This document shows positions 31,600 through 46,981 of a stretch of 64,000 nt of DNA, one piece after another. Numbering within the stretch: the first letter of the stretch is position 1; the number at the start of each line of letters is the position of its first letter. The stretch covers positions 4,960,001 through 5,024,000 of the forward strand of contig NZ_CP126095.1 of assembly GCF_030123105.1 (NCBI RefSeq). The letters are read 5' to 3'. Below the pieces are notes generated by a model that had not been told where the DNA came from, did no database searches, and saw only the letters and a program-made list of their open reading frames with translations. This DNA is from Paenibacillus sp. G2S3 (GTDB taxonomy: Bacteria; Bacillota; Bacilli; Paenibacillales; Paenibacillaceae). The translations under genes were made by a program, and so were the position numbers.

Positions 31600-31647
31600 G
31601 GCTAATCCTCCGTGAATAGAAATGTATATTTTCCCTTAAAATCAAGA

Positions 31648-31684
31648 AATCAGATGCTGGGGTATATCATACAGCACCTGATTC
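31648..31684 (-). terminator. Attenuating terminator after the binding-protein gene
   Basis: On the reverse strand AATCAGGTGCTG and CAGCATCTGATT pair around an 11-13-bp loop, followed by TCTTGATTTT. It lies inside an otherwise colinear locus, so it probably sets a high binding-protein to enzyme ratio. Confidence 0.65.
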
Positions 31685-31697
31685 TGATTTCAATATT

Positions 31698-33356
31698 TTA
31701 TTTTTTAGAAGTGTCATAAGCCTTTTGCAAGATTTCGAGATAACGATCTAGCTTCAAGTTCTGCAATCCCTTTACATAAGCGTCCCAGTCCTTATTCAGA
31801 TCTTTGTTACCCGTGATGAATTGCAGCTCGTTTTGTTCGATATAGTTCTTCAGGTTGGTTTGTAACAAGCTGGCTTCATCAATCTCACTTGGATCAATCC
31901 AGATGGACCAGATTGGGAACAATTCCTTAGGCTCATGGCCTTCGTACAGCAGAGTCGCATCATACAATCTACGTTCATAACCGTCAGAAGCAAAGATGTC
32001 GGTACCTTGAACGTAAGTATCACGATATTCTTTAGGCTCATAGAAGTGAGCCATACCGCTCCAGCCCGCATTACGAGGTGCTGCACCTTCTTCACCTGGA
32101 ATTAATTTGATCATCGGTTTAACGTCTTTACCTAATGCCACATCGCCTTCAACCGGATCGGTCCAATCGGTTCCTTTCAGACCAGCTGCGCCATTGGTTT
32201 GGCCTTCTGGTGTAAACATATAGTCCACCATCTTGATCAAAGCAATTTGTGCTTCCTTGCTTGCTTTATTCGTAATTACAAATTTCGCACCCGGAACTAC
32301 ACCGCCACCATCATGAGTCGCATAGGAAATTCCTTCAGGCCCCGAAATCGGAGCTAGCGGGTTGTAATGTGCTGAACGGGTATTCCCCGGATCGATGTTC
32401 ACGAAGATCGCAGGGTGCATACCCGCTCCAGCGCCTAGAATTTCTGCATCAGCATTTTCACCGATTTTCTTAAGGGCTTCAGCGTTTTGTGTAAAAGCAC
32501 CCGGATCAATCAAACCTTCGTCAAACAGAGACTTAATATAGGTCAATCCTTCTTTCCACTCCGGTGTAATGGCAGCAGATTGAACCTTTCCATCCTTCAT
32601 ATTCAGGTAATTCCGGTCATCATCATAGACAAAAGCGTTCATCAAGAAAGGAACCACCCGTACGCCGAACTCCTCGATGGAACCACTCAGCGGTACTTCA
32701 TCTGCTTTACCGTTACCGTTCGGATCTTGCGTTTTAAAAGCTTTCAGGACATTTTTGAATTCTTCTGTAGTCTTCGGCATCTCTAGATTAAGCTTTTTCA
32801 TCCACTCGGTATTCAACCACATTTTGCTAGGATAGGAGCAGTGGAAACATTCTGTATAAGCTACAAGGCCGTAGATATTGCCGTCAGGTGCTGTATTAAG
32901 TGTTCTTAGATCTGAGTTCTTTTCCATAGCTGCTTTAATATTAGGCGCATATTCATCAATCAGATCATTCAGGGGAATGATTACGCCCTGTTTGCCGTAT
33001 TTCAGTAGATCAGCCTGCGAGAATTGATCGATGTAGTGAGTAAGCAGATACGCATCAGGATAGTCGCCGCTAGCCAGTGAGATCTGGCGTTTTTCCTGGG
33101 CACCATCGGAAGGGTTGATCTGCCAATCGAATTTGAAATTAAATTTTTCTTCCACAAATTTTGTGAACTTATTGGTCGGAAGATCGATGCCGGATTCCTG
33201 AACAGAAAACACACTGATGTTAATAGGCTTGCCAGACGAATCCGAACCACCTTGGGAACTGGATGCGTTCTCTGTATTTTTATTTGCACATCCGCTAATT
33301 ACAACCGTAAACGCCATGACCAGAGCTAGTAAAGTTATTAAGCTTTGCTTCTTCAA
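31698..33356 (-). CDS. Sugar ABC transporter substrate-binding lipoprotein
   Basis: The protein (552 aa) begins MKKQSLITLLALVMAFTV with lipobox VISGC and a Ser/Gly/Asn linker, so it is a lipid-anchored binding protein. The LipO/YtcQ-type body includes LASGDYPDAYLL, VIIPLNDLIDEYAPN and DPNGNGKADEVPL, an EF-hand-like calcium loop found in this group. The start is TTG, nine bases after GGGAG. It is third in the operon after its two permeases, 97 bp after the second. The cargo is presumably the glycan attacked by the downstream SGNH, GH110 and GH95 enzymes (inference). Confidence 0.9.
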   Translation of the reverse strand: MKKQSLITLLALVMAFTVVISGCANKNTENASSSQGGSDSSGKPINISVFSVQESGIDLPTNKFTKFVEEKFNFKFDWQINPSDGAQEKRQISLASGDYPDAYLLTHYIDQFSQADLLKYGKQGVIIPLNDLIDEYAPNIKAAMEKNSDLRTLNTAPDGNIYGLVAYTECFHCSYPSKMWLNTEWMKKLNLEMPKTTEEFKNVLKAFKTQDPNGNGKADEVPLSGSIEEFGVRVVPFLMNAFVYDDDRNYLNMKDGKVQSAAITPEWKEGLTYIKSLFDEGLIDPGAFTQNAEALKKIGENADAEILGAGAGMHPAIFVNIDPGNTRSAHYNPLAPISGPEGISYATHDGGGVVPGAKFVITNKASKEAQIALIKMVDYMFTPEGQTNGAAGLKGTDWTDPVEGDVALGKDVKPMIKLIPGEEGAAPRNAGWSGMAHFYEPKEYRDTYVQGTDIFASDGYERRLYDATLLYEGHEPKELFPIWSIWIDPSEIDEASLLQTNLKNYIEQNELQFITGNKDLNKDWDAYVKGLQNLKLDRYLEILQKAYDTSKK

Positions 33357-33453
33357 ATCTTATCACTCCCTTTTGTAGTTTAGCAGGTGATACGATGATA
33401 CCTTAAGTGTGTACTTCGGGCATACCTCCTTCCCAAAAACGAGAATCCAAAGA

Positions 33454-34356
33454 TTAACCCTTGACCGAACCAACAAGCATCCCCTGCACAAAATAACGCT
33501 GTACAAACGGATAGATGACAAGCACAGGCAAGGTGGCAATCACAATTAAGGAATACTTCAGGAGCTCGGAAAGCTGTTGTTTTTCAACTAGTTTCCCTAC
33601 GTCCATAGCCCCACCAGCGCTGTTGTTCTGAATGATGATGCTTCGCAGCACCAGCTGCAGTGGGAACAGATCTGCTGATTTCAGATAAATCAACGCATCG
33701 AAGTACGCATTCCATTGACCTACCGCATACATAAGAACCAGCACGGCGAGAATCGGCTTGGACAACGGGAGCACTACACTCCAGATAAATCGCATATCAC
33801 TACAGCCGTCGATTTCACTGGCTTCCAAGAGCTCCTCTGGAATTGAGGATTGAAAGAAGGAGCGAGCAATAATGACCTGCCATACCCAAATAGCGTTCGG
33901 AATCAGCAGCGCCCAGCGGGTGTCAATTAAATTCATCTCCTTTACCACCAAATAGGTGGGAATCAACCCGCCATTGAAAATCATGGTGAAGGTGATGATC
34001 ATCATCAGCATATTCCGTCCGAATAAGCCTTTACGGGACAGTGGATAGGCAACCATAACCGTCAAAGTTATACTAATCAGCGTTCCCGCTGCGGTGTAGA
34101 AAATCGAGTTTCCATAACCGGTGATAATTTCTGTGGTATTCAGCAACACTTTGAAGCCTTTGAAGGATATATCTACAGGCCAGAGCCAGACACGACCGGA
34201 AGTAACGGCTGCAGGACTACTGATCGAGCTGCTGATGATAAAAATAAGCGGATAAAGTACAGCGATTACCACGAGAGTGAGCACAACATAGATTGTGATC
34301 AGGAACGCTTTGTCGCCGACGGATTCTTTGATTCTTTTTTGAACTGCTGCTGCCAT
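33454..34356 (-). CDS. Carbohydrate ABC transporter permease (YtcP type)
   Basis: The protein (300 aa) has six spans, the EAA loop ELLEASEIDGCSDMRFIWSVVLPLSKPILA and the C-terminus YPFVQRYFVQGMLVGSVKG. AAGGAG sits seven bases before the ATG at 34356. A TTG two codons upstream (34362) is too close to the ribosome site to be used. It is separated by 15 bp from the LplB-type partner, so the two are translationally close. No ATPase gene is present, as expected for importers using a shared MsmX-like ATPase. Confidence 0.93.
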   Translation of the reverse strand: MAAAVQKRIKESVGDKAFLITIYVVLTLVVIAVLYPLIFIISSSISSPAAVTSGRVWLWPVDISFKGFKVLLNTTEIITGYGNSIFYTAAGTLISITLTVMVAYPLSRKGLFGRNMLMMIITFTMIFNGGLIPTYLVVKEMNLIDTRWALLIPNAIWVWQVIIARSFFQSSIPEELLEASEIDGCSDMRFIWSVVLPLSKPILAVLVLMYAVGQWNAYFDALIYLKSADLFPLQLVLRSIIIQNNSAGGAMDVGKLVEKQQLSELLKYSLIVIATLPVLVIYPFVQRYFVQGMLVGSVKG

Positions 34357-34371
34357 AGACAAGCTCCTTTC

Positions 34372-35304
34372 TTACCAGATGCTGTTCTTAGTAATTCTTT
34401 TCGCCAAGCCGTTTACTGTAAATAAGAGAATCAGGTTGATGATGGAGTTGAACAGCCCCACCGCAGTTGCAAAGCTGTAATTGGCATTCAACAGTCCGAC
34501 CCGATATACATAGGTGGCAATGATCTCAGAATTGACCAGGTTCAATGGATTCTGCAACAAGTACACCTTTTCAAAACCAATCGCCATTACATTCCCTACG
34601 TTCAGAATCAGAATAATGACGATGGTTGGCACAATCCCCGGCAAATCGACGTGGCGGATTTTTTGAAACCGTGATGCACCATCGACTTTGGCTGCTTCAT
34701 AGAGGGTTGGATCTATTCCTGCAAGCGCTGCTAAATATACGACTGCGCTATAACCTGCTGTCTGCCAAATATCAGACCAGACATAAATTGAACGGAACAT
34801 ACCAGGTTCACCGAGGAAGTTAATAGAATCCAGTCCGAAAAAATTGAGTGCAATGTTGGCAAAGCCGAGGCGCGGCGCCAGGAACAGCATAACGATCGAC
34901 ACCATGACAACCGTCGAGATGAAATAAGGTGCAAACGACACGAGTTGAACGAATTTTTTGAATCTTCCTCCCCGTATTTCATTAATCATGAGCGCAAGAA
35001 TAATCGGGATCGGGAAACCCGCCAGCAGCTGATAGCCACTAAGCATGATGGTATTCTTGAGCAGTGTCCAAAACTGAGGATTCTCAAAGAAGAGACGGAA
35101 ATTCTTAAATCCGACCCAAGGGCTTCCCCATATTCCTTTAGTGACGTTATAGTCCTTAAAGGCTAGGACAGCGTTCAGCATTGGATAATATTTGAAAATG
35201 AGAAAAAATAACAAGGGTGGAATTACTAGCAGATGTAATTGCCAGTGTTTTTTTATGCTTTTACTAGCATTTTGTAAGAATACAGGACCCTTGCTTTTCG
35301 GCAA
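34372..35304 (-). CDS. Sugar ABC transporter permease (LplB type)
   Basis: This is the first gene of the GH110/GH95 locus. The protein has WQLHLLVIPPLLFFLIFKYYPMLN, six spans and the EAA loop TLYEAAKVDGASRFQKIRHVDLPGIVPT. The start is uncertain: TTG at 35304 gives 310 aa but has no ribosome site at proper distance. The frame is open further upstream, and GGAG (at about 35332) lies some 26 bases away without an ATG or GTG nearby. A promoter with a cre-like operator just downstream of the -10 box lies at 35371-35398. Confidence 0.88.
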   Translation of the reverse strand: MPKSKGPVFLQNASKSIKKHWQLHLLVIPPLLFFLIFKYYPMLNAVLAFKDYNVTKGIWGSPWVGFKNFRLFFENPQFWTLLKNTIMLSGYQLLAGFPIPIILALMINEIRGGRFKKFVQLVSFAPYFISTVVMVSIVMLFLAPRLGFANIALNFFGLDSINFLGEPGMFRSIYVWSDIWQTAGYSAVVYLAALAGIDPTLYEAAKVDGASRFQKIRHVDLPGIVPTIVIILILNVGNVMAIGFEKVYLLQNPLNLVNSEIIATYVYRVGLLNANYSFATAVGLFNSIINLILLFTVNGLAKRITKNSIW

Positions 35305-35370
35305 CGACTTGCGATGTAATACTATTTCTTTCTCCAGAACAATTCCCCCTAAGCAGATGTCTGTGATTTG

Positions 35371-35398
35371 TGATAGCGCTTTCTAGGATTTGATCATA
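35371..35398 (-). promoter_or_regulatory. Promoter with roadblock-type cre-like operator
   Basis: Read on the reverse strand: -10 box TATGAT (35393-35398), eight bases, then AGAAAGCGCTATCA (35371-35384). The same -10/operator pair, with nine bases between, precedes the GH27 gene at 45590-45618. No good -35 box is seen, as expected for activator-dependent promoters. Other than this and the XRE promoter, the gene-free stretch 35305-35847 has only a decayed trace of the 202-bp repeat motif near 35470-35530. Confidence 0.55.
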
Positions 35399-35804
35399 GA
35401 TGACTTTTATCCCTAAATGAAAGGTACACTTGGGCAGTTCAGCGTACAAATTACCTTATTCAGGGAGCACAAAATAGCTGTAGAACGGCCATTTTTCCGG
35501 AATCAGGGTTCGGACTCAAATAAGCATGACAAATAACCCTCCAATCACTGGATTCATTTAATGCACTCCCCTAATTTTGATTTACCGGTGGCCCCTGTGA
35601 TTTCTTCTTATCGCCCTATAGCATCGCTTGTTATACGGGATCTCACATACGAACCGGCAGGATAATGGAAATGATTTGTAGAAAAAAACTATAAATGAAA
35701 GTGAATTTTCAATCCGGACAATTCTACCGGCAGTTGAATAAAGCGCATGTGACCATTCAACCATCGCTTGATAGGATTGCGTTTACGGAAATGCTATGCT
35801 GTTT

Positions 35805-35835
35805 TTGACAGTGCGCACTGTACATTTTGTTTTAT
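35805..35835 (+). promoter_or_regulatory. Promoter with palindromic operator for the XRE-type gene
   Basis: TTGACA at 35805-35810 is overlapped by the perfect 14-bp palindrome ACAGTGCGCACTGT (35808-35821). A weak -10 box lies near 35828-35835. The placement suggests repression, plausibly by the XRE protein itself. Confidence 0.55.
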
Positions 35836-35847
35836 TGGAGGTATACA

Positions 35848-36771
35848 ATGCTCGACTTGCGTAAAATTGGAGCTTATATTTCGAAGCTTCGCAAAGACCA
35901 GGATCTGACTCAATTGGAAATTGCAGATCAACTGAATGTAAGTCATCAAGCGGTATCGAAATGGGAACGGGGTGAATCGCTACCGGATATCGGAACGCTT
36001 CCGCTGTTTGCGAGGTTATTCGGAAAAACGGTAGACGACATTTTAAATGCAGGAGACAACGCAGAAAATCGGGAGCACCCGCACCTAGGAACGATCGTTG
36101 AGGAGATCGCAGAGAACAGGCCGGAACAAGTTGCAGAGATGGTCAATACCGGAGAGGCGGAGGTGGAGGAGCTTGTAGAAGTAGCCCCGTTTGTAAAAGC
36201 AAGCGCTCTGCATAAGGTTACAGAACGATTAGACAGCAGCATCCTTAAATTAGACGTGATCATGCGGCTGGCTCCGTTCCTTGGAGCAGATACATTGGAT
36301 GAACTGGTTCGTCAGGCAGAAGAGGGCGAAATTGTGTGGGATGCCATTACTGGACTCGCTCCGTTCGTCAGCAGCGACACATTAAGCCGACTGGTAGATA
36401 AATCGATTGACGGTTCCTTAGAAGTGCACAATCTTTTTGGAATTGCCCCGTTTCTTGGAAGAGAACATGTAGATCGGTTGGTACAACAAGCAGAAGAGGG
36501 CAGCTTGAGCTGGCATTCCGTTCAAGGGCTGGCACCCTTTATTAGCAGAGAAACGTTAAACCGTTTGGTAGACCGGGTTACAGATGGCACCATCGATGCG
36601 GACCGGATCATAAGCCTCGCACCTTTTCTGGACAGGGAAAATCTCGAGAAGTTGATTGGTGGAGTCGAAGCTGAACATCTTAGCCCAGATCTGCTGGCAA
36701 GTCTTGCTCCTTTCGTCGACCAAGGGACATTGAGCAGAATGGTGACAAACTTATTAAATAAAGTAAAGTAG
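35848..36771 (+). CDS. XRE-family regulator fused to a helical repeat domain
   Basis: The start at 35848 is six bases after GGAGG; an upstream in-frame ATG at 35827 lacks a site. The protein (307 aa) begins with a Cro/C1-type helix-turn-helix (about 1-60: ISKLRKDQDLTQLEIADQLNVSHQAVSKWERGESLPD). The rest (about 95-307) is built of six to seven units of about 29 residues, each centred on (L/I/V)APF(L/V/I) followed by xxxxLxxLVxxxxxG, probably a helical solenoid for protein or ligand contact. The function of the repeat part is unknown. It lies alone between the big locus and an IS element. The palindrome over its -35 box suggests self-control. Confidence 0.85.
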   Translation: MLDLRKIGAYISKLRKDQDLTQLEIADQLNVSHQAVSKWERGESLPDIGTLPLFARLFGKTVDDILNAGDNAENREHPHLGTIVEEIAENRPEQVAEMVNTGEAEVEELVEVAPFVKASALHKVTERLDSSILKLDVIMRLAPFLGADTLDELVRQAEEGEIVWDAITGLAPFVSSDTLSRLVDKSIDGSLEVHNLFGIAPFLGREHVDRLVQQAEEGSLSWHSVQGLAPFISRETLNRLVDRVTDGTIDADRIISLAPFLDRENLEKLIGGVEAEHLSPDLLASLAPFVDQGTLSRMVTNLLNKVK

Positions 36772-36940
36772 ACACGTATATCGGAGATCGGAGATTGGTG
36801 ATGCTTAGACCGTCGGTGATCCCCAAAGCTAACGGGAAACGTTAGTTAAACGACAACAGCGGCAGTCTAAGACTTGATATGCTCCCCATACGGTAGACAG
36901 GCGAAATAAAAAAACCTGCTACTGTGAGGGGAGCTTATTC

Positions 36941-37618
36941 ATGTCTAGAGGGAAATATAACGCTTTGGAGAAACTCACCATCCTCGAAGAGGTATCGAAT
37001 GGGGAGATTGGTTTTTTAGCAGCTGCGACGAAATATGGGATTAACAAGACGACTTTAATGAAATGGCAACGTCGATATAAGACACATGGATATAAAGGGT
37101 TGGAGCGCCGTACACATCTTCAAAGGTACAGTGCTGAACTGAAGATCCAGGCGGTGAAGGACTATCTTGAGGGGGACTTGTCTCAGTATCAGATCATCGA
37201 TAAATACAAGATTGCTAGTACGAGGCAGCTCTTCAATTGGATTAACAAGTATAATGGTCATAGCAGCTTAACAGCCTACAAAGGGGAAAGAAAAGCTATG
37301 ACAAAAGGGCGAACTACGACTTGGCAAGAACGGATCGAAATCGTTCAGTATTGTCTGAGCAATCAATATGATTACCAAAAGACAGCTGGACAGTTTCAGG
37401 TCTCCTATCAGCAAGTATACCAATGGGTGAAGAAGTTTGAAGGTGGCGGCCAGGATGCATTAAAGGATGGTCGAGGAAGAAAAAAAGCCCCAGAAGAGTT
37501 AACGGCGGCCGACCAACAGAAACTCAAGATGAAGCAAATGGAGTACGAAATTGAGCGACTTCGGACGGAAAATGCATTTTTAAAAAAGTTAGAGGAACTA
37601 GAAAGAAGGCGACGCTAA
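36941..37618 (+). CDS. IS3-family transposase OrfA
   Basis: The protein (225 aa) has two or three helix-turn-helix units (about 1-50, 60-105 and 120-170: AATKYGINKTTLMKWQRRYKTHG, IDKYKIASTRQLFNWINKY, FQVSYQQVYQWVKKF). A C-terminal leucine-zipper-like stretch (MKQMEYEIERLRTENAFLKKL) follows. It binds the IS ends. GAGGGGAGC lies about eleven bases before the ATG. The slippery heptamer AAAAAAG at 37582-37588, in the A-AAA-AAG phase, allows -1 shifting into OrfB. Confidence 0.9.
   Translation: MSRGKYNALEKLTILEEVSNGEIGFLAAATKYGINKTTLMKWQRRYKTHGYKGLERRTHLQRYSAELKIQAVKDYLEGDLSQYQIIDKYKIASTRQLFNWINKYNGHSSLTAYKGERKAMTKGRTTTWQERIEIVQYCLSNQYDYQKTAGQFQVSYQQVYQWVKKFEGGGQDALKDGRGRKKAPEELTAADQQKLKMKQMEYEIERLRTENAFLKKLEELERRRR
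37582..37588 (+). other. Programmed -1 frameshift site
   Basis: Heptamer A-AAA-AAG lies in OrfA phase (codons TTA AAA AAG). After a -1 slip the frame is open from here through the whole of OrfB without a stop, giving an OrfAB fusion transposase. A downstream stimulatory structure was not checked. Confidence 0.75.
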
Positions 37619-37671
37619 ATCAAACACGGCAGGAAACGATCTACCTTGCCATTCAAGCACTTCAAAAGGAC

Positions 37672-38496
37672 GTGTCAGCAAGCATTCAACGGCTATGCGA
37701 AATTGCAGGAATTGCACGCTCAAGCTATTACAAATGGCTAAATCGCAAGCCCAGCCCTCGTGAGCAGGAGAATGAGCAGTTGATCCAGGTAATGATGACC
37801 ATCTATGAGAAAGTGGAGCGCACTTTTGGGTACCGTCAATTAACTCTGCATATGCGCAGACAAACCGAAAAAACCATTAACCACAAGCGCGTAAAGCGGC
37901 TAATGAAGGTCCTGGGAATTCAGTCCGTTATTCGGAGAAAGAGGAAAAAGTATGCCAATGCTACTCCACAACAGGTCGCGGAGAACGTCCTAAACCGCAA
38001 CTTCCATGCGGATACGCCGAATGAAAAGTGGCTCACCGATGTAACGGAATTCAAGTATGGCAACGGCCAGAAAGCGTATTTAAGCGCTATTCTCGATCTC
38101 CATGATAAATCCATCGTCTCTTATGTATTAGGGCGTTCCAATAACAATCCACTTGTATTCCAAACGTTGAAACTCGCCTTACAAGAAGCCCCAGAAAACA
38201 GCCCATTGCTTCATAGCGATAGAGGCTATCAGTACACTTCACTGAGCTTTAAGAAGCTTCTGGATGGCAACAAAATGGTTCAGAGTATGTCCCGAGTTGG
38301 GCGATGCATCGATAACGGTCCAATGGAATCCTTCTGGGGGACCTTAAAATGTGAGAAGTATTATTTGCACAAGTACCATACCTTTGAAGAGCTTAAAAGG
38401 GACATTGAGGCCTACATTCACTTTTACAATTACGAACGGTTACAAGCAAATTTAAACGGCCGTAGTCCGATGGAATTTAGGACCAAGGCCGTTTAA
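37672..38496 (+). CDS. IS3-family transposase OrfB (DDE integrase domain)
   Basis: The GTG-initiated frame gives 274 aa, but the product is more likely made as a fusion with OrfA through the -1 slip at 37582. An HTH_21 segment (FGYRQLTLHMRR) is followed by an rve-type catalytic core: first Asp in WLTDVTEF, second Asp in LLHSDRGYQYTS, and Glu in CIDNGPMESFWGTLK. All three acidic residues are present and the frame is intact, so the element may still be active. Confidence 0.92.
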   Translation: MSASIQRLCEIAGIARSSYYKWLNRKPSPREQENEQLIQVMMTIYEKVERTFGYRQLTLHMRRQTEKTINHKRVKRLMKVLGIQSVIRRKRKKYANATPQQVAENVLNRNFHADTPNEKWLTDVTEFKYGNGQKAYLSAILDLHDKSIVSYVLGRSNNNPLVFQTLKLALQEAPENSPLLHSDRGYQYTSLSFKKLLDGNKMVQSMSRVGRCIDNGPMESFWGTLKCEKYYLHKYHTFEELKRDIEAYIHFYNYERLQANLNGRSPMEFRTKAV

Positions 38497-38621
38497 ACGA
38501 TTTTGATTATTTGTACTGTCTACTTGACGGGGTGCAGTTCAGACTTTATTTATCAAGTCTTGGTCCGCCGCTGCTCCTTTTAATGGATCAGTCTAATACT
38601 TAATTTTCACCAAACAACTAT

Positions 38622-40865
38622 TTATTCATCAATAGACTGTCTATAAGCGCTCGGTGAAACGCCGATTAACCGCTTGAAGGCCCTTCTGAAAGAATGTGAA
38701 CTGTTATAGCCCACCCGCATGGCAATCTCATCAACCGTATACCTACTATCTTTTAGCAGAATCATAGCCTGATCCATTCTAACTTTTATCAGATAGTCAG
38801 AGAAATTGACACCCGTAACCTCCTTAAACAATTGAGAAATATATTTTTCAGGCCGTTCCACCTGTTCAGCTACCCGGTACAGACTCAGCTCTGTATCCGA
38901 ATAATTCTCTACGGTATATTCCTTGATCTGCTTAATAATCTGAATATGAACATCCTTCTTTTTATTTGCAATAAGTCCGCACAGCTCTTCCATAATGACA
39001 AAAAATTCGGTCTGAATTATTTCAAGCCGTTCCGACGAACCAATGTCTATAATCCGCCGCTTCACACTCTCGATGTCTAGGTATTCTGTAAAAGCCTTTT
39101 GATCCAGAAGCTTAAGAAACGTCCCTTTTATTTCACCAACAAGCTGTTGCTTCATTTCCATGGATAATTCACGCTGTTCCATGTTCTGGGCAACGATCGC
39201 ACGGACAATCCGTTTAGCCTCCTCTAGCTCTCCAGCCCGAATAGTACTGATCAGACGTTGCTCTGTATCCAGTGGATAATAGTAGGTCGTATTCTCATTT
39301 TGGGCTTCGCTACTCCAGACAATTCCTTTTTTATTCATGTAGACGGCATATTCCAGAGCTTGCTTGGCTTGGTCAAAGGAAAGGCTAACCTCCGTTATTT
39401 CTGTGAAAAGATCACCGAAGCCCGCCTGAGTAGTAATACGGTACTCATTAAAAACGTACTGCGCCAAATTCTCCAGAATGTGAGTGATATTCTCTGCCTC
39501 ATGCGCTTTAGTCTCTTCTTCCTTGGAGAAAAACAGAGTTACAACTTTGTCAGAGCCCATATCCGTCATTAGTACATCCACTCCGAGATCCGATAGGGAC
39601 TGCTTCAGCAGCAAACGGGAAGCACTCAGCTCATTAAGAATCTCAACACTGTCCATACCGGCATAGCCGTTAATTTGCACGATTCCTACGTACCCACTGT
39701 TCTGTTTCAAGCTGATCCCCACCTGCTCGGCGGCTGTGAGAATCTCATCATTCGTTTTGAATTCACCTGCTAGCAGGCGCTTCAGGAATGCATCTCGGAC
39801 CAAGGGAAGCTGGCGATTAAGTTCGGTTTCCAGCAGCTTGTTCTTGGTGATCATATTGGCGATATTTCCGCTTAGAAAGTCAAATTCATTCTTTGCAGAG
39901 GCCTCTTCCTTGCCGAATTGGTCCTTCATTACGCTAAGCATGCGGTTGATTGGAGCGCTGTTACGATATGCTAATATCAGTCCTACAATCAAGCCGATGA
40001 TTAGCGTACCTCCCGTAATTTGTATCGAGATTCTCTTAATCTTGTTCGCATTCTCCATCAAAATATTTTGAGGAATCCCTGTCTGATAGACCCAGCCATT
40101 GGAATCGGATCGGGTAGTAATCACCAAATCGTCCTTGTAAAACTGACTAACCTTGTTCTTATCAAAAGCGGGATCGTCCGTCATTTGGATCATTTTCTGC
40201 TCATCGCTGCCTTGTAAAGCAATCGTATTCCCTTTGGCATCACTTATATGTACCCAGCCTCCGTATCGCTCGGTCAGGCCTGAGAGCAGGTTCGAAATAT
40301 TTTTCTCATCAATAATCACTACCGCGACAGCCGGCGAGGAATCGTTAAAGCTATCCAAGGGGAGAGACTGCATATATGTAATGACCGAGGTTTCCATCCC
40401 CCTGCTAACAAAATCACTGAGTGGCTTGATCTCGCCGCGGTGGGTTTTCTCAAGCACTTCTTTGGTCCAATCCTGTAGCGAAAGATCCTTATAGTTAAAA
40501 TTAGAGTAGTAATGTTCCGGTCGGTAAGAAGAGCCTGGGGTTAGAATTAGATTATAATTGGCGAGGTAAATATAATAGTCTTGCAAAAAATCATTAGTCT
40601 GACCGAAGGTCAAAACATTCCGCATTGTTTTCCAAATACCATAAACATTCGTCTCATTTTCGTTTTCATTCATGAGTACATTTAACTCCTGGTTGACAGC
40701 CAATTGCCTGGTAAAACCTTCAGCCTCCGCCATACGGCGCTCCAATATTTCCTGACTCTTCTGAAGCTGAGTGACTCCATTCTCAATCGAGATGGACTGT
40801 GTCACGGAGATCGAGGTTAGGTAGGACATGTATCCACCAATGCTGGGTATGACCAAAATGACCAC
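38622..40865 (-). CDS. Membrane-bound AraC-type regulator (YesS-like)
   Basis: The protein (747 aa as annotated from a GTG) has two membrane spans (N-terminal, and about residues 285-305) around a dCache-like extracellular sensor. A cytoplasmic middle part is followed by a C-terminal AraC DNA-binding domain (about 645-747: EKYISQLFKEVTGVNFSDYLIKVRMDQAMILL and RVGYNSSHSFRRAFKRLIGVSPSAYRQ). One protein thus both senses and binds DNA. The first span begins upstream of the GTG: the frame stays open to about 40920 (KYSNIFRKFLISYVV), with GGGGAGGGG at about 40914-40922, but no ATG, GTG or TTG follows. The true start is unusual or the sequence has an error. The GH27 gene upstream is a plausible target. 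Confidence 0.85.
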   Translation of the reverse strand: MVILVIPSIGGYMSYLTSISVTQSISIENGVTQLQKSQEILERRMAEAEGFTRQLAVNQELNVLMNENENETNVYGIWKTMRNVLTFGQTNDFLQDYYIYLANYNLILTPGSSYRPEHYYSNFNYKDLSLQDWTKEVLEKTHRGEIKPLSDFVSRGMETSVITYMQSLPLDSFNDSSPAVAVVIIDEKNISNLLSGLTERYGGWVHISDAKGNTIALQGSDEQKMIQMTDDPAFDKNKVSQFYKDDLVITTRSDSNGWVYQTGIPQNILMENANKIKRISIQITGGTLIIGLIVGLILAYRNSAPINRMLSVMKDQFGKEEASAKNEFDFLSGNIANMITKNKLLETELNRQLPLVRDAFLKRLLAGEFKTNDEILTAAEQVGISLKQNSGYVGIVQINGYAGMDSVEILNELSASRLLLKQSLSDLGVDVLMTDMGSDKVVTLFFSKEEETKAHEAENITHILENLAQYVFNEYRITTQAGFGDLFTEITEVSLSFDQAKQALEYAVYMNKKGIVWSSEAQNENTTYYYPLDTEQRLISTIRAGELEEAKRIVRAIVAQNMEQRELSMEMKQQLVGEIKGTFLKLLDQKAFTEYLDIESVKRRIIDIGSSERLEIIQTEFFVIMEELCGLIANKKKDVHIQIIKQIKEYTVENYSDTELSLYRVAEQVERPEKYISQLFKEVTGVNFSDYLIKVRMDQAMILLKDSRYTVDEIAMRVGYNSSHSFRRAFKRLIGVSPSAYRQSIDE

Positions 40866-40935
40866 ATAAGAGATTAAAAATTTTCGAAAGATATTGGAAT
40901 ATTTAAGCGTAGTGACCCCTCCCCTAAACCCATTT

Positions 40936-40949
40936 CGATAGCGCTATCA
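40936..40949. promoter_or_regulatory. Palindromic cre-like operator of the membrane regulator
   Basis: CGATAGCGCTATCA holds the perfect 12-bp palindrome GATAGCGCTATC (40937-40948). It is just upstream of the ribosome site of the 38622-40865 gene, and shares the TGATAGCGCT core with other sites in the window. Confidence 0.55.
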
Positions 40950-41084
40950 TTACCATAGGTTAAAACATTTTACTTAATAGTCAAGTGTTCAAGGCCAATT
41001 TTATAGCTTTTCAAACTTTCAGAATTGGATAAAAAGCAAAGATATACGCTGTTATCACTCCTTTTTATCGGCAACTCCGATTTT

Positions 41085-41559
41085 TTATCTTTTTGACGCG
41101 TTAATTCTTTTGATTCCGTTCACTCGCATGACGTGTGGAGCCTCCAGTGCCGCAGTAATTCCCTCCACCACATCCTCTGCATGGACATGCGCCAGTGTGA
41201 TGAACGGGAGCGGTGGTTTGGACCCAGCTTCCAAGACAGGAGGAATCCAGCCTGGGGAGGCTACAGCTCCAAAGCGAAGATTAATAAAGTCGGTATCTTT
41301 ATGACTGCGGTGAAAATACCGGGTCAACTCCTCGACCATCCCCTTGCTCAGCCCATAGGCATCCGCTGCCAAGCAGGGATGATCATCTGGGATAGTCTAG
41401 CCCGCTCAAATCCTTCACCGAATCAAAAGAACCCTGAACATACTTAAAAGCCCCTTCCGGAGCTTGACGTGACAGACAAATCACTGTATGTTTATCCGCC
41501 AAATACTTGACTAGAGCCGTTCCGATAAATCCACTTGCTCCGGTAATTAGAATATTCAT
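41085..41559 (-). pseudogene. Decayed NAD-dependent epimerase/dehydratase
   Basis: The N-terminal piece from 41559 reads MNILITGASGFIGTALVKYL, a Rossmann GxxGxxG start, up to LSGLDYP near 41390. After a frame change the sequence continues DDHPCLAADAYGLSKGMVEEL with the YxxxK catalytic motif, then LRFGAVASPGW and HVHAEDVVEGI, ending at 41085. About 70 residues between the cofactor site and YxxxK are gone and the C-terminus is short. Compared with about 290 aa for the family, this is an internally deleted and frameshifted remnant. GAAGGGAAG before the start is preserved. It lies 85 bp downstream of the GH27 gene. Confidence 0.8.
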
Positions 41560-41603
41560 GCTCATCTTCCCTTCTTTTTCTCGTCTCATATCATTCAGAA
41601 AAA

Positions 41604-41623
41604 AGGGGCCAAAGAAGGCCCCT
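41604..41623 (-). terminator. Terminator of the GH27 gene
   Basis: AGGGGCC-AAAGAA-GGCCCCT is followed by TTTTTTC on the reverse strand, 21 bp past the stop at 41644. Confidence 0.9.
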
Positions 41624-41643
41624 CCGTTCATTCATCGCTCAAC

Positions 41644-44600
41644 TTATTTTGTCCACTGTTCTCCGCCTTGTGTACTAGGCTTCGAGATATGGTCGGTCGA
41701 AGCCTCCTCAATATCACTGAATGCCCAGTGGGAGACTGGAACATCGTTCCACCCTGGCTGTGTGACCCCCATTAGCGGGCCTCTGCCCAAAACTCTGTTG
41801 ATAGCTGTAACGGCTTCCGCACGAGTAAGCTTGGAATTGGGGCGGAAAGTTCCGTCACTGTAGCCATTCATTATGCCTATATCTTGAGCTTTTAGAATCG
41901 CCGCCTGTGCCCAGTGGCCTGTGATGTCAGAGAAGCCACGGCCCGATGTTGTAGAATTCGGGCTCAGTATGGCCGCCAAACTAGCCATTTCTGCACGTGT
42001 CAATGGTTGATTAGGCTTAAAAGTGCCATCGCTGTAACCTTTCATTAGTCCCATCTTAGCTACTTTGGCAATAGCATCTGTCCCCCAATAGCTGGAGGGT
42101 ACATCACTGAATGTTACGCCTGATCCAGTGGCCTCTTTCTCAGCTACCTTCGCTAGGATGGTTGCCATCTCAGCACGAGTAATGGGAGCATCAGGTTTAA
42201 AGAAGCCGCCCGGATAGCCGTTGATATACGCCGAATGTTGCATCGTCTCGGTGTCATCCTTCCCATCAGTTCCAGATACCGGAGTTGGCGTCGGACTCAG
42301 GGTAGGTGTGGCTGAAGGCTGAACTGGAATAGACGGGCTTCCTGCATCAGTTGGTGTCGGTGTTGCTGCCGGCGTTGGTGTTGGTGTTGGAGGTTCCGTA
42401 GGGTTCGTTGTTCCGCCATCGCTGGTTGGGACTGTGAATATCAATTGATCCGTCAGCATGAGTTTACCTGATTTCTTGACAGCTTTAAGTGTGTGTAAGC
42501 CACTTGCTAATCCAGAAATACTGTAAATCTCCTGTTTAGTTAGCCGGCTTGAACTAAAAGCGTTTGCGGTATGAACTAGTTGTCCGTCCACATAAATATC
42601 TACTTCAGCTTGATTTGGACCCGTAGGTGTAATCAGGCGGATTCCAGTGCCCTTGAAGGTATATTCAAAGAAATCGCCGTCCACTGTCGTTGAATGCACG
42701 TCATTGAGATAATCGCCACCAATAGTAAAGCTAAGGATCAAATTCCCCACTGGTTGTGCTGCAAGATAAGATTTGTTCAGTGTAACACGGTCACCAGCTA
42801 CCGTATAATCGGTCCCAGGAACCAGATGATATGATCCGTTCGTAATGCCTATGAAGCTTTCTGGCTGTTGCAGAAGTGTCACCTCAATGTCCTCCTGAGC
42901 AGAAGGCGATTTATCAAAGCTCCCTGCTATCGGATTAATCATATTCGGAATCTCCACCTTAAGCATGTCAAGCAGCATGAATCTGCCCGATTTCTTCACG
43001 ACCTTGAGCGTGTGCAATCCATCCGAAAGAGCAGAGATGCTGTACAAGTTCTGCAGTGACAATTGTCCGTTATGATAAGCACTTACAGTTTCCTTGAATT
43101 CGTCGTCCAAATAAATATCCATATCTCCTTGTGACCCGTCTACCTCCGTGAACAGCTGAATCCCCGTTCCTCTGAAGGTATATTCGAAAGAATCACCGTT
43201 CTGCTCCGTATACTGCACATCGTCTTTATAGTCACCCAATCCTCTGCCACTACTGCGGTTCCAGGTGCCATTGTATTTGATTGTCGAATCATCGTTATTA
43301 ATCATCACATAACGAATGCCTGTAGAGTCGCTAATGTGTACCGCTAGTGTCTGTGGATCACCGGCGTTAAAGATGATGTTCAGACTTGCTAAGCCAGCAG
43401 CTTGCTGCGCAAGATATTCCTTCTTGATGGTCAATTTATCATTAGTCACCGTATAATCGTCTTCATGGAGTGCCACTCCATTATTTTCGATATTACTCAG
43501 CGTATTACCATTCAGATTAAGCGTGACTGTGACATCCTTCTGTTGTTCCGTTGCTTTATCAAAACCAGCGGATGTCGGAGTAATGGAACTGTTCTGACCC
43601 CCTGCCGGACTTTCTGTTGTCACTTTCAGCGCGTCGAGCAGCATATAATTTCCCGAGCCCTTGCTCACCTTAAGCGTGTGAGGCCCGTTAGAAAGTCTAG
43701 TTACACTATAAAGAGATTGTTGTACCTCTCTAGGTCCACTTGTATACGCATTTACAGTCTGTGTTGCCCCATCGTCCAATGTAACAATCATGTCTCCTTG
43801 CGATTCATGCTTTTCCGTCAGCAGCTCAATGCCTGTCCCCGTAAAGGTATAGTCAAAAGAATCGCCGTCAATCTCGGTATAATGTACATCGTTATTGTAA
43901 TCCGCATGTTCTCGAGAGGAGCTTACCTGCCATGAGCCGTTGTATTTAATATTGCTGTCATTATCATTAATGTAAACCACATTAGTAACCGTGATATTGT
44001 TTGCCGAAGCTGAATCCGCAGCAGGGTCAGCCACAGAGTTCAGAGCATCCTCTTGAGGAGTACTGGTAGCAGCAGCCGAGGAATCCTTAATTGTAATGTT
44101 CAGATCCTGCTTCCCTTCTAACAGCTCCTTGCCTCCATTTCGCTTCCAATCTCCGCTGTAGCGCATCCCTGTATCATCGTTATTAACAGCCGATGTCCCG
44201 CTTAGCGCGGTTACTTTAAGCATGCGAGAGGCATGGGGTTCAAGGATGCCACCGCTAAATTCCTTCTCAAAGGTTCCCAGCTCGGAATGACTCCATAAGT
44301 CGCGTACCGAAGCCGGACCTTCAAGGCCGAGATCACTCCATTTGACTTTAACCTCCGCACCCCGACTACCCAGATTGAACAGAGCTACGCTGTAGGTCCC
44401 ATCTCCATTATTGGCATACCAGACCTGCTGCTGGGTATCCATCGATACAGGATGACCAGGACGTCCCGCCTGATTTACAGCAATTACCTCATCATTTGTA
44501 AGCAGTTCTAGTCCATAACTATCCAGCCGTGTCATGTCATTCCCTGTATAGAGCGGTACGGAGGAAATGGACCAGAACGTCATCGCTGTCTTCCGCTCAT

Positions 44601-45549
44601 CCTTGGTCAGACCATCCATGGAGCCGTTACCAACGTTCAGAGAATCGAAGTCGTTCCAGCCACCAGGGCCTGCGTCCCGCCACCAAAGTGCTGCTTTGGG
44701 GAATAATCGAGAAATACTCGGCCATGCTGTTAACCCACTGCCGTCATAAGATTCAACATCCCAATCAATTCGCCATCCGTTAGCATATTTTTTCCAGAAT
44801 TCTACGTAATTGTGGTCGAGCGCCCAGGACAGCTCAAACCAGATGTTATTTCTATCCAAAGCCTTGGACCATGCTTCTACATCGCCGCGTGCATCCCGGC
44901 TCAAGTTGTCAATCCCCGACCCAGGGGTTACGCTGTCGAATTTGACGAAATCAATCCCCCACTCACCAAGCAAATCTGCAATGGAATCCACATACTTCTG
45001 GGCACAGGGATTCGTGAAATCAATTTTATAGGTGTAGGAATTCCAATAATCCATAATGGTAAGCGGCTTGGCCGTAATATCCTGAATACGACATTCGCCG
45101 CCTGTCCCATACACCTCAAGATTTCGGTTATATGCATCGATAGATACCCCCGGGATCAGATAGATCCCAATCTTTTGTCCATTATTATGAACATAGTCAA
45201 TAACCTCCTGAAATCCGTTCGGATAAAGGACTTCACTAGGAATGGGTCTCCCGTATTCATCCATATCGCCATTCCAGCCCGCATCAATATTAATGTATTC
45301 ATATCCATGGGCTTGCAGCTTCTCATGCATCGCGTCCGATTGCTTCTTAACGCTCTCCGCCGATGTCCAGTTTCCTGCCCCATCATACACTTGCATACTG
45401 TAACTGCTCCAGCCCATATACGGCTTTTGAGCCAAACTCTTCTCCGCCGCTTGCGCCACGTTACCTTTCATTCCTGTAAAACCGAACTGTGCCGCTGCAA
45501 TAATGAATACTAGCAGACTCATACCCAATCTTTTTCCCATTCGCTTCAA
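41644..45549 (-). CDS. SLH-anchored GH27 alpha-galactosidase with repeated accessory modules
   Basis: The protein (1301 aa) has a signal peptide to about residue 34 (AQA). The GH27 catalytic domain (about 36-330) shows KPYMGWSSYS, YINIDAGWN, DFVKFD with nucleophile Asp205 and GWRIDWDVE with acid/base Asp264; a C-terminal beta domain ends near 455. An alternating array follows: a 115-residue beta module (about 530-645), an X2-type Ig domain (655-740), the beta module again (745-860), a second X2 domain (865-945) and a truncated third beta module (948-1045). A Pro/Thr linker leads to three SLH repeats (about 1103-1290). It should remove alpha-galactose from polymers at the cell surface. The start is TTG near AAGGA, or ATG three codons on. 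Confidence 0.92.
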   Translation of the reverse strand: MKRMGKRLGMSLLVFIIAAAQFGFTGMKGNVAQAAEKSLAQKPYMGWSSYSMQVYDGAGNWTSAESVKKQSDAMHEKLQAHGYEYINIDAGWNGDMDEYGRPIPSEVLYPNGFQEVIDYVHNNGQKIGIYLIPGVSIDAYNRNLEVYGTGGECRIQDITAKPLTIMDYWNSYTYKIDFTNPCAQKYVDSIADLLGEWGIDFVKFDSVTPGSGIDNLSRDARGDVEAWSKALDRNNIWFELSWALDHNYVEFWKKYANGWRIDWDVESYDGSGLTAWPSISRLFPKAALWWRDAGPGGWNDFDSLNVGNGSMDGLTKDERKTAMTFWSISSVPLYTGNDMTRLDSYGLELLTNDEVIAVNQAGRPGHPVSMDTQQQVWYANNGDGTYSVALFNLGSRGAEVKVKWSDLGLEGPASVRDLWSHSELGTFEKEFSGGILEPHASRMLKVTALSGTSAVNNDDTGMRYSGDWKRNGGKELLEGKQDLNITIKDSSAAATSTPQEDALNSVADPAADSASANNITVTNVVYINDNDSNIKYNGSWQVSSSREHADYNNDVHYTEIDGDSFDYTFTGTGIELLTEKHESQGDMIVTLDDGATQTVNAYTSGPREVQQSLYSVTRLSNGPHTLKVSKGSGNYMLLDALKVTTESPAGGQNSSITPTSAGFDKATEQQKDVTVTLNLNGNTLSNIENNGVALHEDDYTVTNDKLTIKKEYLAQQAAGLASLNIIFNAGDPQTLAVHISDSTGIRYVMINNDDSTIKYNGTWNRSSGRGLGDYKDDVQYTEQNGDSFEYTFRGTGIQLFTEVDGSQGDMDIYLDDEFKETVSAYHNGQLSLQNLYSISALSDGLHTLKVVKKSGRFMLLDMLKVEIPNMINPIAGSFDKSPSAQEDIEVTLLQQPESFIGITNGSYHLVPGTDYTVAGDRVTLNKSYLAAQPVGNLILSFTIGGDYLNDVHSTTVDGDFFEYTFKGTGIRLITPTGPNQAEVDIYVDGQLVHTANAFSSSRLTKQEIYSISGLASGLHTLKAVKKSGKLMLTDQLIFTVPTSDGGTTNPTEPPTPTPTPAATPTPTDAGSPSIPVQPSATPTLSPTPTPVSGTDGKDDTETMQHSAYINGYPGGFFKPDAPITRAEMATILAKVAEKEATGSGVTFSDVPSSYWGTDAIAKVAKMGLMKGYSDGTFKPNQPLTRAEMASLAAILSPNSTTSGRGFSDITGHWAQAAILKAQDIGIMNGYSDGTFRPNSKLTRAEAVTAINRVLGRGPLMGVTQPGWNDVPVSHWAFSDIEEASTDHISKPSTQGGEQWTK

Positions 45550-45589
45550 ATCATCCTTACCCCCTCATGAAATGTGGTTAAAATTACTT

Positions 45590-45618
45590 TGATAGCGCTT
45601 TCTTTCGGAAAGATCATA
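45590..45618 (-). promoter_or_regulatory. GH27 promoter with roadblock-type cre-like operator
   Basis: Read in reverse: TATGAT (-10, 45613-45618), nine bases, AGAAAGCGCTATCA (45590-45603), 41 bp before the start codon. Same plan as at 35371-35398. Confidence 0.55.
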
Positions 45619-45790
45619 ATTGAATATGGATTTCCAAGATAGGTACATTTCGGTATTTTACGTACAAATAACCCAAAAACAGAGGGGCAAATAAACAGCA
45701 TAACAAACATAATTCCCTCGATTCTATGGAACTTAGTGAAAACACTGTACCCTGGTTATATTGGACAATCATAAAAAAACTCTTGTTTCC

Positions 45791-45819
45791 TTGTTCCAGT
45801 GATGAAAATCACTTACTAT
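45791..45819 (+). promoter_or_regulatory. Promoter with palindromic operator filling the spacer (receptor/peptide operon)
   Basis: TTGTTC at 45791-45796 and TACTAT at 45814-45819 are 17 bp apart. The spacer contains AGTGAT-GAAA-ATCACT (45798-45813), a perfect 6-bp inverted repeat. A protein bound there would block polymerase. The rest of the gene-free stretch 45619-45790 is AT-rich with nothing recognised. Confidence 0.6.
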
Positions 45820-45904
45820 ATTGGTAAAATAAAGAATAGTTTAGAGATACAAACAACATAGCAATAACAGATGAATGATATACATAGAAGAAAGGAAGAT
45901 CGCA

Positions 45905-46747
45905 TTGAAGTTGGATTTGGATGGATTAAATGCTGATTCCTTAACTTGTATGCTTAAGGCATCTTTTTCATTGGAAAATTGGGATGCTATGATTGAAATT
46001 GCAGATAGATTGATCACCCAGATTGCACTCATATATGAGACAAGCAGTGACACATTGAGAGAACAAAACCTGAAGCGGAGTATTCCCTATTATTTTGGAT
46101 TTAGCTTATGTTCAAAAGGAATCGCACTGCAAAAGCTCGGTAAGTATCCTGAAGCTAGAATGTGTATTCAAAAATATGCTGAATTAGGCTGGATCAAAGG
46201 GTTAGATGAAGAAGGAATTAATGAAGTCAAATACTACCGTAATATTGCAAAAGCCAATACCTACGTACTCGACCTTTTGGAAGGCCAGAAAGGGGTCCTA
46301 AATGAATATGTTCAATTTATTAGAAACAGCGCTGAGGAAGAGTTACTGCCAGGACTTATAACCATCTTGGAATCCTCAATAAAATATAATTATTCCGTAG
46401 ATTGGATTCTGAGAGAATTCGAAATCAACGCAAACGACATAGGAGCACGAGGAACTAAAGAGAGTATAAGATATTTTGTGGATTACAAATTCTTGCTGGC
46501 GACGTACCACTACAAACTGGAGAATACGTTCGATGCGATAAACATAATTCTGGAGACCTTACTATTAAGTATTACGCTGAAAGATGATACAGGCTTTAAG
46601 AAAGCAGCAGCATTATTTGAGATCCTTAGAGATGATGCTAACCAATCACAGCTCCAAGTGCATCACAACATAATGAAAACTATAATAGAGAGGGAGTTAA
46701 CTAATGAAAAAGAAAATGTTATTGCTTACAGTCGTAATCTTGATTAG
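45905..46747 (+). CDS. RRNPP-type TPR peptide receptor (Rap-like) lacking a DNA-binding domain
   Basis: TTG at 45905 lies six bases after AAGGAAG and gives 280 aa; an in-frame ATG at 45875 has no ribosome site. The product is all-helical with TPR-like pairs, for example LKASFSLENWDAMIEIADRLITQIALIYE, YFGFSLCSKGIALQKLGKYPEARMCIQKYAELGW and LLATYHYKLENTFDAINIILETLLL. No helix-turn-helix precedes it, in this or other frames upstream. The 3' end overlaps by 44 bp a 44-aa gene encoding an exported pro-peptide, the classic arrangement of Rap-Phr and other RRNPP quorum-sensing pairs. It probably binds the re-imported peptide in the cytoplasm and acts through protein contacts. Assignment rests on gene arrangement and helix pattern, not on a database match. 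Confidence 0.72.
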   Translation: MKLDLDGLNADSLTCMLKASFSLENWDAMIEIADRLITQIALIYETSSDTLREQNLKRSIPYYFGFSLCSKGIALQKLGKYPEARMCIQKYAELGWIKGLDEEGINEVKYYRNIAKANTYVLDLLEGQKGVLNEYVQFIRNSAEEELLPGLITILESSIKYNYSVDWILREFEINANDIGARGTKESIRYFVDYKFLLATYHYKLENTFDAINIILETLLLSITLKDDTGFKKAAALFEILRDDANQSQLQVHHNIMKTIIERELTNEKENVIAYSRNLD

Positions 46748-46838
46748 TTCCAGCTTAATGATCGCCTCTGCAAGTGCTTCCGCTGTCGATTCGGGTTCCA
46801 CAATTTACACCGTTAACAATCACGGAATGGGTCATTAA
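46704..46838 (+). CDS. Secreted quorum-sensing pro-peptide (Phr-like)
   Basis: This is a 44-aa ORF. GAGAGGGAG lies about six bases before the ATG. It has a positively charged start (MKKKM), a hydrophobic core LLLTVVILISSSLMIA and a signal-peptidase motif ASA after residue 27, leaving VDSGSTIYTVNNHGMGH. The C-terminal residues, about YTVNNHGMGH, are the natural candidate for the mature signal, which in such systems is trimmed outside and re-imported by an oligopeptide permease. It overlaps the receptor gene in another frame, so the two are co-translated. A strong terminator follows at 46864. Peptide-receptor pairs of this sort are known in Paenibacillus; this peptide sequence I do not recognise. 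Confidence 0.75.
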   Translation: MKKKMLLLTVVILISSSLMIASASASAVDSGSTIYTVNNHGMGH

Positions 46839-46863
46839 TTGAAACTTAATCATTGGATTATAC

Positions 46864-46902
46864 AAAGGAGCGATCATCCGGTTATTGGATGATCGCTCCT
46901 TT
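46864..46902. terminator. Bidirectional terminator after the pro-peptide gene
   Basis: AAAGGAGCGATCATCC and GGATGATCGCTCCTTT form a perfect 16-bp stem with loop GGTTATT, followed by TGTTTGT. It serves the peptide operon and probably the convergent regulator gene ending at 46982. Confidence 0.92.
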
Positions 46903-46981
46903 GTTTGTAAATGAACATGATAGATTAGCTAAAATTCAAGGTACTCAGAATCATGCAGGATTTTTTCGCCATAAATCCTCT

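Follow-up and report, generated by a model that had tools for sequence, protein, structure and literature searches.

The Alo systems described so far come from Paenibacillus polymyxa, and all AloR receptors are described as bearing an N-terminal HTH domain (Voichek et al. 2020, PMC7425212). According to the same paper, one of them, AloR13, acts on a promoter, the AloP13 signal is the six-residue peptide SHGRGG, and a spo0E-like gene stands behind the Alo13 pair. In the wider classification given in PMC12700828, AloR belongs to clan C, as does AimR, and Rap belongs to clan B. Here we analyse a receptor and a putative pro-peptide encoded in a window of 64,000 nucleotides (the whole stretch of DNA that was analysed) from Paenibacillus sp. 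G2S3, whose genome is a single contig of 6.7 Mb.

The receptor gene and the overlapping pro-peptide gene

The receptor gene occupies 45905..46747 of the forward strand, from a TTG at 45905 to a stop codon that ends at 46747, and encodes 280 amino acids (ORF list). An alternative frame opens at the ATG at 45875 and would give 290 aa. We placed the start at 45905 because the ribosome-binding site AAAGGAAG (45891..45898, forward strand), identical in the related loci L004, L007 and L009, lies directly 5' of it, and because the TTG agrees with the 13 upstream regions compared. Further upstream, the motif scan and the upstream regions of the relatives point to a palindrome, GTGATGAAAATCAC (45799..45812, no strand assigned), as a possible operator; it looks CRP/FNR-like (GTGA-N6-TCAC). 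With up to one mismatch permitted, the window contains one match, which is exact, versus 0.10 expected, and the genome contains nine, versus two for the reversed control. At the equivalent position the palindrome is exact in L007 and L009, has one change in L010 and two in L004. Since it lies near the likely promoter, oxygen or catabolite control of the receptor-peptide pair is possible. The sigma-70 scan was uninformative (6 sites versus 6.1 expected), and neither a tRNA nor an Rfam family (gathering cut-offs) was detected anywhere in the window.

The second gene, an AloP-type pro-peptide gene of 44 codons (46704..46838, forward strand), starts at the ATG at 46704 and shares 46704-46747 with the receptor gene, an overlap of 44 bp; its own ribosome-binding site, GAGGGAG (46690..46696, forward strand), lies within the receptor gene. 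The receptor/small-ORF layout described by the sequence-only reading, including the tail NNHGMGH, is real. Residues 1-27 (MKKKM...ASASASA; 46704..46784, forward strand) form a predicted signal peptide with a putative cleavage point, judging from their composition and from a hydrophobicity filter passed by this and other pro-peptides of the clade. The predicted mature signal is NHGMGH (residues 39-44; 46818..46835, forward strand), or possibly NNHGMGH, as suggested by the conservation of the tail, by tandem copies and by the AloP13 parallel. All 23 peptides compared from the window's clade have H, G, G and H at positions -5, -4, -2 and -1; N is found at -6 in 18/23 and at -7 in 19/23, and the residues upstream are variable. 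The pro-peptide of L090 (8946-9822, minus strand) carries NHGANY three times in tandem and that of the L066 plasmid carries NNHGANS twice, suggesting that the signal unit consists of six or seven residues; L065, another plasmid locus, has a similar pair. In two of three plasmid records the peptide gene is missing from the gene table, which is incomplete by design. To look for a second gene with the same signal, the host genome was scanned with the narrow pattern HG-x-G-[YH]-stop; this gave six places, and among the five inspected the window's was the only plausible AloP.

Behind the small ORF lies a hairpin with a perfect 19-bp stem (46862..46904, forward strand; -36.1 kcal/mol as RNA, z -8.4), a likely terminator that has same-place counterparts in L004 and L007. 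It had been called a perfect terminator. The stem deserves this name, but for the tail it goes too far: the T run is short in the window (it is longer in L004), and for this reason the consensus terminator scan did not list the hairpin.

An AloR-type TPR receptor without a recognisable HTH domain

The AlphaFold2 model of the receptor alone (mean pLDDT 88.2) is all-helical and TPR-like, with 12 helices, as had been anticipated from the sequence. The best structural rows are TPR proteins, NprR-NprX, Rap-CSF and PlcR-PapR among them, with the RRNPP proteins tied with eukaryotic TPR proteins. Foldseek alone, run with the model against the PDB, gave no match at E ≤ 0.001, and the PDB sequence search with the receptor returned one chance match and none of note. 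On the Rap chains, residues 5-245 of the model align with 93-312 of 4gyo_A, and residues 1-242 with 77-304 of 8rte_B. Because the alignment runs from Rap residues 77-135 on, there is no room in the window receptor for the Rap-type three-helix bundle, which we take to end ahead of those residues.

Among 5.8 billion proteins, searched with candidates limited to 1.75 times the query length, 75 of 1,077 candidates were related to the receptor at E ≤ 0.001, the longest being 312 aa. Where a source is named for these 75, it is Paenibacillus, a single Bacillota MAG or a compost metagenome. Receptor matches (E ≤ 1e-5) were found in 96 of 100 genomes of the genus, and receptor-profile matches (1e-10) in 147 of 295 genomes of the family, spread over 5 of its 19 genera. 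A single phage record out of 50,697 contains a relative: Brevibacillus phage SecTim467 (L068, 1615-3438) encodes a long AloR-like receptor annotated as DNA-binding, which is preceded by an annotated Spo0E gene and followed by a small ORF.

The kinship with AloR shows in the host genome itself, in which two longer open frames, of 481 and 486 aa (E 1e-26 and 2e-23), match the window receptor with their C-terminal ~270 residues only; more generally, the window receptor aligns with the C-terminal ~270 aa of AloRs of 460-490 aa. The 486-aa paralogue (L003) passes the Pfam HTH_3 cut-off (24.3 bits versus 23). In the other (L002) HTH_26 stays under the Pfam cut-off, and in its model (pLDDT 87.2) the HTH region comprises five helices, followed by another six and, from about residue 192, by the window-like part. 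The profile of the window's family also recovered a 474-aa HTH receptor (L131, genome G345) whose pro-peptide ends in SHGRGG and is followed by an ORF passing Pfam SpoOE-like (51.7 bits versus a cut-off of 23), the arrangement of Alo13.

The window receptor has no match to any Pfam HTH family and its model opens with TPR helices. A profile built from 27 AloR N-terminal halves stayed at noise level on this protein and found nothing in the upstream frames; inside 64 short receptors its best E was 0.53. Run at E ≤ 0.1 over 95,926 bases 5' of the short receptors, the profile found ten pieces, all from small separate XRE-type genes and none adjoining the 25 receptors of the window's clade. The idea that a frameshift conceals an upstream HTH fragment was rejected, as the profile finds none in that clade.

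The HTH-less receptors make up 74 of 97 distinct receptors, in a set biased by design towards proteins related to the window's, and all 74 rows fall on one side of one branch (SH-aLRT 98). In an earlier tree 60 HTH-less rows formed one clade with support 100, the 61st being cut by the end of its locus. The clade contains many intact members of about 270-325 aa from numerous species. One receptor of 346 aa (L143, 1156-2194) is intermediate in form: it lacks the HTH but retains some of the N-terminal TPR region. Several HTH-less proteins of 280 aa (P0003, P0006, P0011 and others) carry the NCBI label 'DNA-binding protein', a name often used for these receptors that finds no support in their sequence and is misleading.

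Conservation and surroundings of the pair

With a single fixed filter we selected small ORFs of 28-64 aa that have a positive start and a hydrophobic stretch and whose start lies within -125 to +70 relative to the stop of the receptor gene. Such an ORF accompanies 63 of 91 receptors, and 5 of the remaining 28 lie at the edge of their locus. HG occurs in the last 8 residues of 57 of these 63 small ORFs versus 1 of 553 control ORFs, which satisfy the same limits on length, charge and hydrophobicity but lie at other places in loci of at least 10 kb. The receptor gene contains the start of 51 of the 57. The HG peptide is present beside 45 of 64 HTH-less receptors (including the cut row L066_0) and 12 of 27 HTH receptors. 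The overlap itself is conserved in homologous pairs, as the sequence-only reading had led us to look for: the window's clade has 25 receptors, and in 23 a small ORF ending in HGxGH follows at an offset of -44, -47 or -56. The two exceptions are L009, in which the end of the peptide is altered, and L010, in which the filter found none. For 18 of all 74 HTH-less receptors the filter detected no HG peptide. In L108 the two genes both appear broken, the receptor being in two open pieces; the pair decays in some species (L009, L010 and L108). HG is not universal among Alo peptides either: on the P. polymyxa ATCC 842 plasmid, the peptide behind the AloR ends in GYIGGA and lacks it.

The last residue of the tail tracks the receptor tree, with 11 changes versus 25.1 in shuffles and none of 200 shuffles as low, a contrast that near-copies inflate. 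Five receptor residues (N118, Y63, Y135, Y201 and G127) are constant in the 45/45 peptide-bearing HTH-less receptors and the 12/12 peptide-bearing HTH receptors compared, and may contribute either to peptide binding or to the fold; seven peptide-less receptors keep them as well, so they may serve the fold. Alternatively, the small ORF might encode some other type of secreted product, such as a bacteriocin-like or cell-surface peptide, that the receptor does not read. A secretion signal alone would suit such a product as well, its binding by the receptor is something we infer, and there are chance-level profile matches, for example to lactococcin 972 (E 0.076; 13.3 bits versus a cut-off of 32.1). 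However, the conserved coupling to the receptor gene, the AloP13-like HG tail and the way in which the tail type follows the receptor clade make this explanation extremely improbable.

Both genes are under purifying selection. In the codons outside the overlap, pN/pS of the small ORF is 0.24, 0.24, 0.43 and 0.32 in four groups (0.24 in the window's group of three). Within the overlap it is 0.76 in the window's group, a value based on few changes (4 synonymous, 12 not), whereas the other three groups show 0.00, 0.05 and 0.16. For the receptor it is 0.17-0.39 in ten pairs. A receptor gene that is the decaying remnant of an AloR, truncated and functionless, would explain why the window protein has neither the HTH nor about six further helices and why the peptide is altered, missing or broken in the three loci named above, but it fits neither this selection on both ORFs nor the single clade of many intact members in many species, and we consider it very unlikely.

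We also analysed whether the neighbouring genes could be involved in the function of the pair. About 355 bp separate the receptor from a large divergent gene 5' of it, whose 1301-aa alpha-galactosidase-like product has the Pfam domains Melibiase_2, Melibiase_C, CBM_X2 and SLH; downstream, convergent to the pair, lie a response regulator (Response_reg and HTH_18) and a histidine kinase. The idea that the receptor works via these adjacent genes, either the alpha-galactosidase-like gene or the YesMN-type response regulator, draws on the presence of the former next to the receptor in 5 of 47 loci (the window, L004, L070, L071 and L108) and of the same regulator beside the receptor in L004. The receptor closest to the window's in the tree, that of genome G069, speaks against it. 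At that locus (L069, C1:4554249-4573085) window positions 45595-46906 are kept at 91.6% identity, directly after window position 31351, and the 14 kb from 31352 to 45594, including the divergent gene, are absent at the equivalent place. To the right of 46906 there is no match within the stretch compared, and the downstream response regulator is absent there. In the whole G069 genome, searches with two halves of the alpha-galactosidase-like product gave no close homologue, with partial matches of 32-46% identity overall (at most 36% in the figures set against this explanation), and the response regulator has no close homologue either (best 36%). Relatives at 50-55% identity have other neighbouring genes. 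With the pair kept in G069 and the neighbours varying among relatives, control by the neighbouring sugar genes was rejected, and action through adjacent genes of either kind appears improbable to us.

Since G069 keeps 45595-46906 without sugar-use neighbours, the unit from promoter to hairpin stands alone. The description of the pair as a module within a sugar-use region thus holds as geography and goes no further, and because a close relative keeps the pair without these surroundings, they are probably incidental to it. No gene is common to the neighbourhoods of all relatives (47 loci compared). There are exceptions to this variety: L075 and L081 have neighbours in common, and one gene is found beside both L006 and L076. 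ABC sugar permease-like and YesMN-like genes (clusters c2, c3 and c5, putatively so named) recur in 9, 8 and 7 of the 47 loci, near both kinds of receptor, which by rough reasoning we judge to be the chance level for such common genes.

A different kind of neighbour was found near other HTH-less receptors. Small XRE regulators lie within 1.25 kb 5' of 8 of 18 peptide-less versus 4 of 56 peptide-bearing HTH-less receptors (Fisher p 8e-4), counts that are not independent of kinship, and of 1 of 23 HTH receptors. In 11 of the 12 cases the regulator stands back-to-back with the HTH-less receptor, and Pfam HTH_3 was confirmed in two examples. Independent pairs give no support to a trade-off between XRE gene and peptide, which is only a lead, and the XRE genes beside peptide-less receptors may represent one inherited arrangement. 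Back-to-back XRE genes (HTH_3), sometimes two, were seen 5' of the peptide-less receptors of L039, L040, L091, L092, L094, L102, L136 and L140; an HTH-less receptor with a separate XRE protein is a possible split of sensor and DNA-binder. No XRE regulator is adjacent to the window receptor, and the lead has no bearing on the window. One receptor of its clade, L016, is followed at a distance of 1.5 kb by an XRE-like ORF.

Proposed mode of action and comparison with known systems

We think it probable that the window pair is a peptide pheromone derived from the Alo family together with an HTH-less receptor that acts via a partner protein. By analogy with Alo and with the general RRNPP pattern, the 44-aa pro-peptide would be exported by Sec and trimmed outside the cell until its last six or seven residues, (N)NHGMGH, are left. 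An oligopeptide permease would import this peptide, and the 280-aa TPR receptor would bind it in its concave face. Binding would switch the contact of the receptor with another protein, rather than with DNA, because the receptor has neither a DNA-binding domain nor a Rap-type bundle. Possible partners are a regulator encoded separately, one of the full-length AloR paralogues and a response regulator.

The two full-length AloRs encoded by the same genome raise the alternative that the HTH-less receptor has no target of its own and tunes AloR circuits as a peptide sink or dominant-negative, by absorbing peptide or forming mixed dimers, an option that would also suit the lack of a neighbouring gene common to all relatives. 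We regard it as unlikely, since the window's own peptide, NHGMGH, differs from the YEHGANW of paralogue L002 (none was found for L003) and since tail types follow receptor clades, which together suggest a private signal.

More broadly, and more tentatively than for the window pair, the HTH-less Alo receptors may constitute an undescribed RRNPP output class, although we lean against asserting it: bare peptide-binding TPR domains, split once from HTH-bearing AloR and signalling via a separate protein, with the back-to-back XRE perhaps as the partner in the peptide-less sub-branch, so that sensor and DNA-binder would be on two chains. A common branch of AloR has lost the known output domain and mostly keeps its peptide. 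This would be a further loss of the HTH beyond the two named in the available part of PMC12700828, those of Rap and subfamily 17, and it leaves the TPRs alone. The pair also offers a concrete predicted signal, NHGMGH, that can be purchased and tested.

The sequence-only reading had proposed an RRNPP-like quorum-sensing pair, in parallel with Rap-Phr, with AimR-AimP and with the peptide-receptor pairs of P. polymyxa. The proposal is well supported and the P. polymyxa (Alo) parallel is right by sequence; the other two parallels did not hold. The Rap-Phr systems of Bacillus share with the window pair the lack of an HTH, the TPR fold and a short C-terminal peptide, and the loss of the HTH in Rap is likewise called a derived state in PMC9765709 and PMC12700828. 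However, Rap has an N-terminal three-helix bundle that the window receptor lacks, and membership in Rap-Phr was rejected. No sequence relation to Rap was detected: no Rap family matched in Pfam or NCBIfam at E ≤ 1, and the PDB gave no sequence match of note. The AimR-AimP systems of Bacillus phages also have a small pro-peptide and a receptor with degenerate TPRs, but AimR carries an HTH and steers a phage, whereas the window receptor has no HTH and lies among sugar-use genes, and on these grounds membership was rejected here too. The NCBIfam AimR model does not match the window receptor at E ≤ 1. AimR chains are absent from the rows listed for the window model, an absence that is no evidence, and appear for the full-length paralogue, with a best Foldseek E of 1.1e-3.

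The AloR-AloP systems differ from the window pair in the N-terminal HTH and the first TPR helices, which the window receptor lacks, and in the next gene, which in the window is convergent and not spo0E-like. The likeness extends to the homologous C-terminal TPR part, to the occurrence in Paenibacillaceae, to the pro-peptide gene that directly follows the receptor gene, often overlapping it, and encodes a signal peptide, and to the C-terminal HG-containing hexapeptide (SHGRGG in Alo13). The HTH apart, the window pair has two further marks of an Alo pair: AloR homology, which the receptor shows towards the AloRs of its own genome and through the Alo13-like locus recovered by its family's profile, and a downstream or overlapping ORF of 32-50 aa with a secretion signal, here of 44 aa with a 44-bp overlap and a hydrophobic N-terminus. 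In the broad sense of RRNPP, a TPR receptor with an adjacent predicted secreted pro-peptide, the window pair belongs, as indicated by the model, the fold rows and the conservation of the pair.
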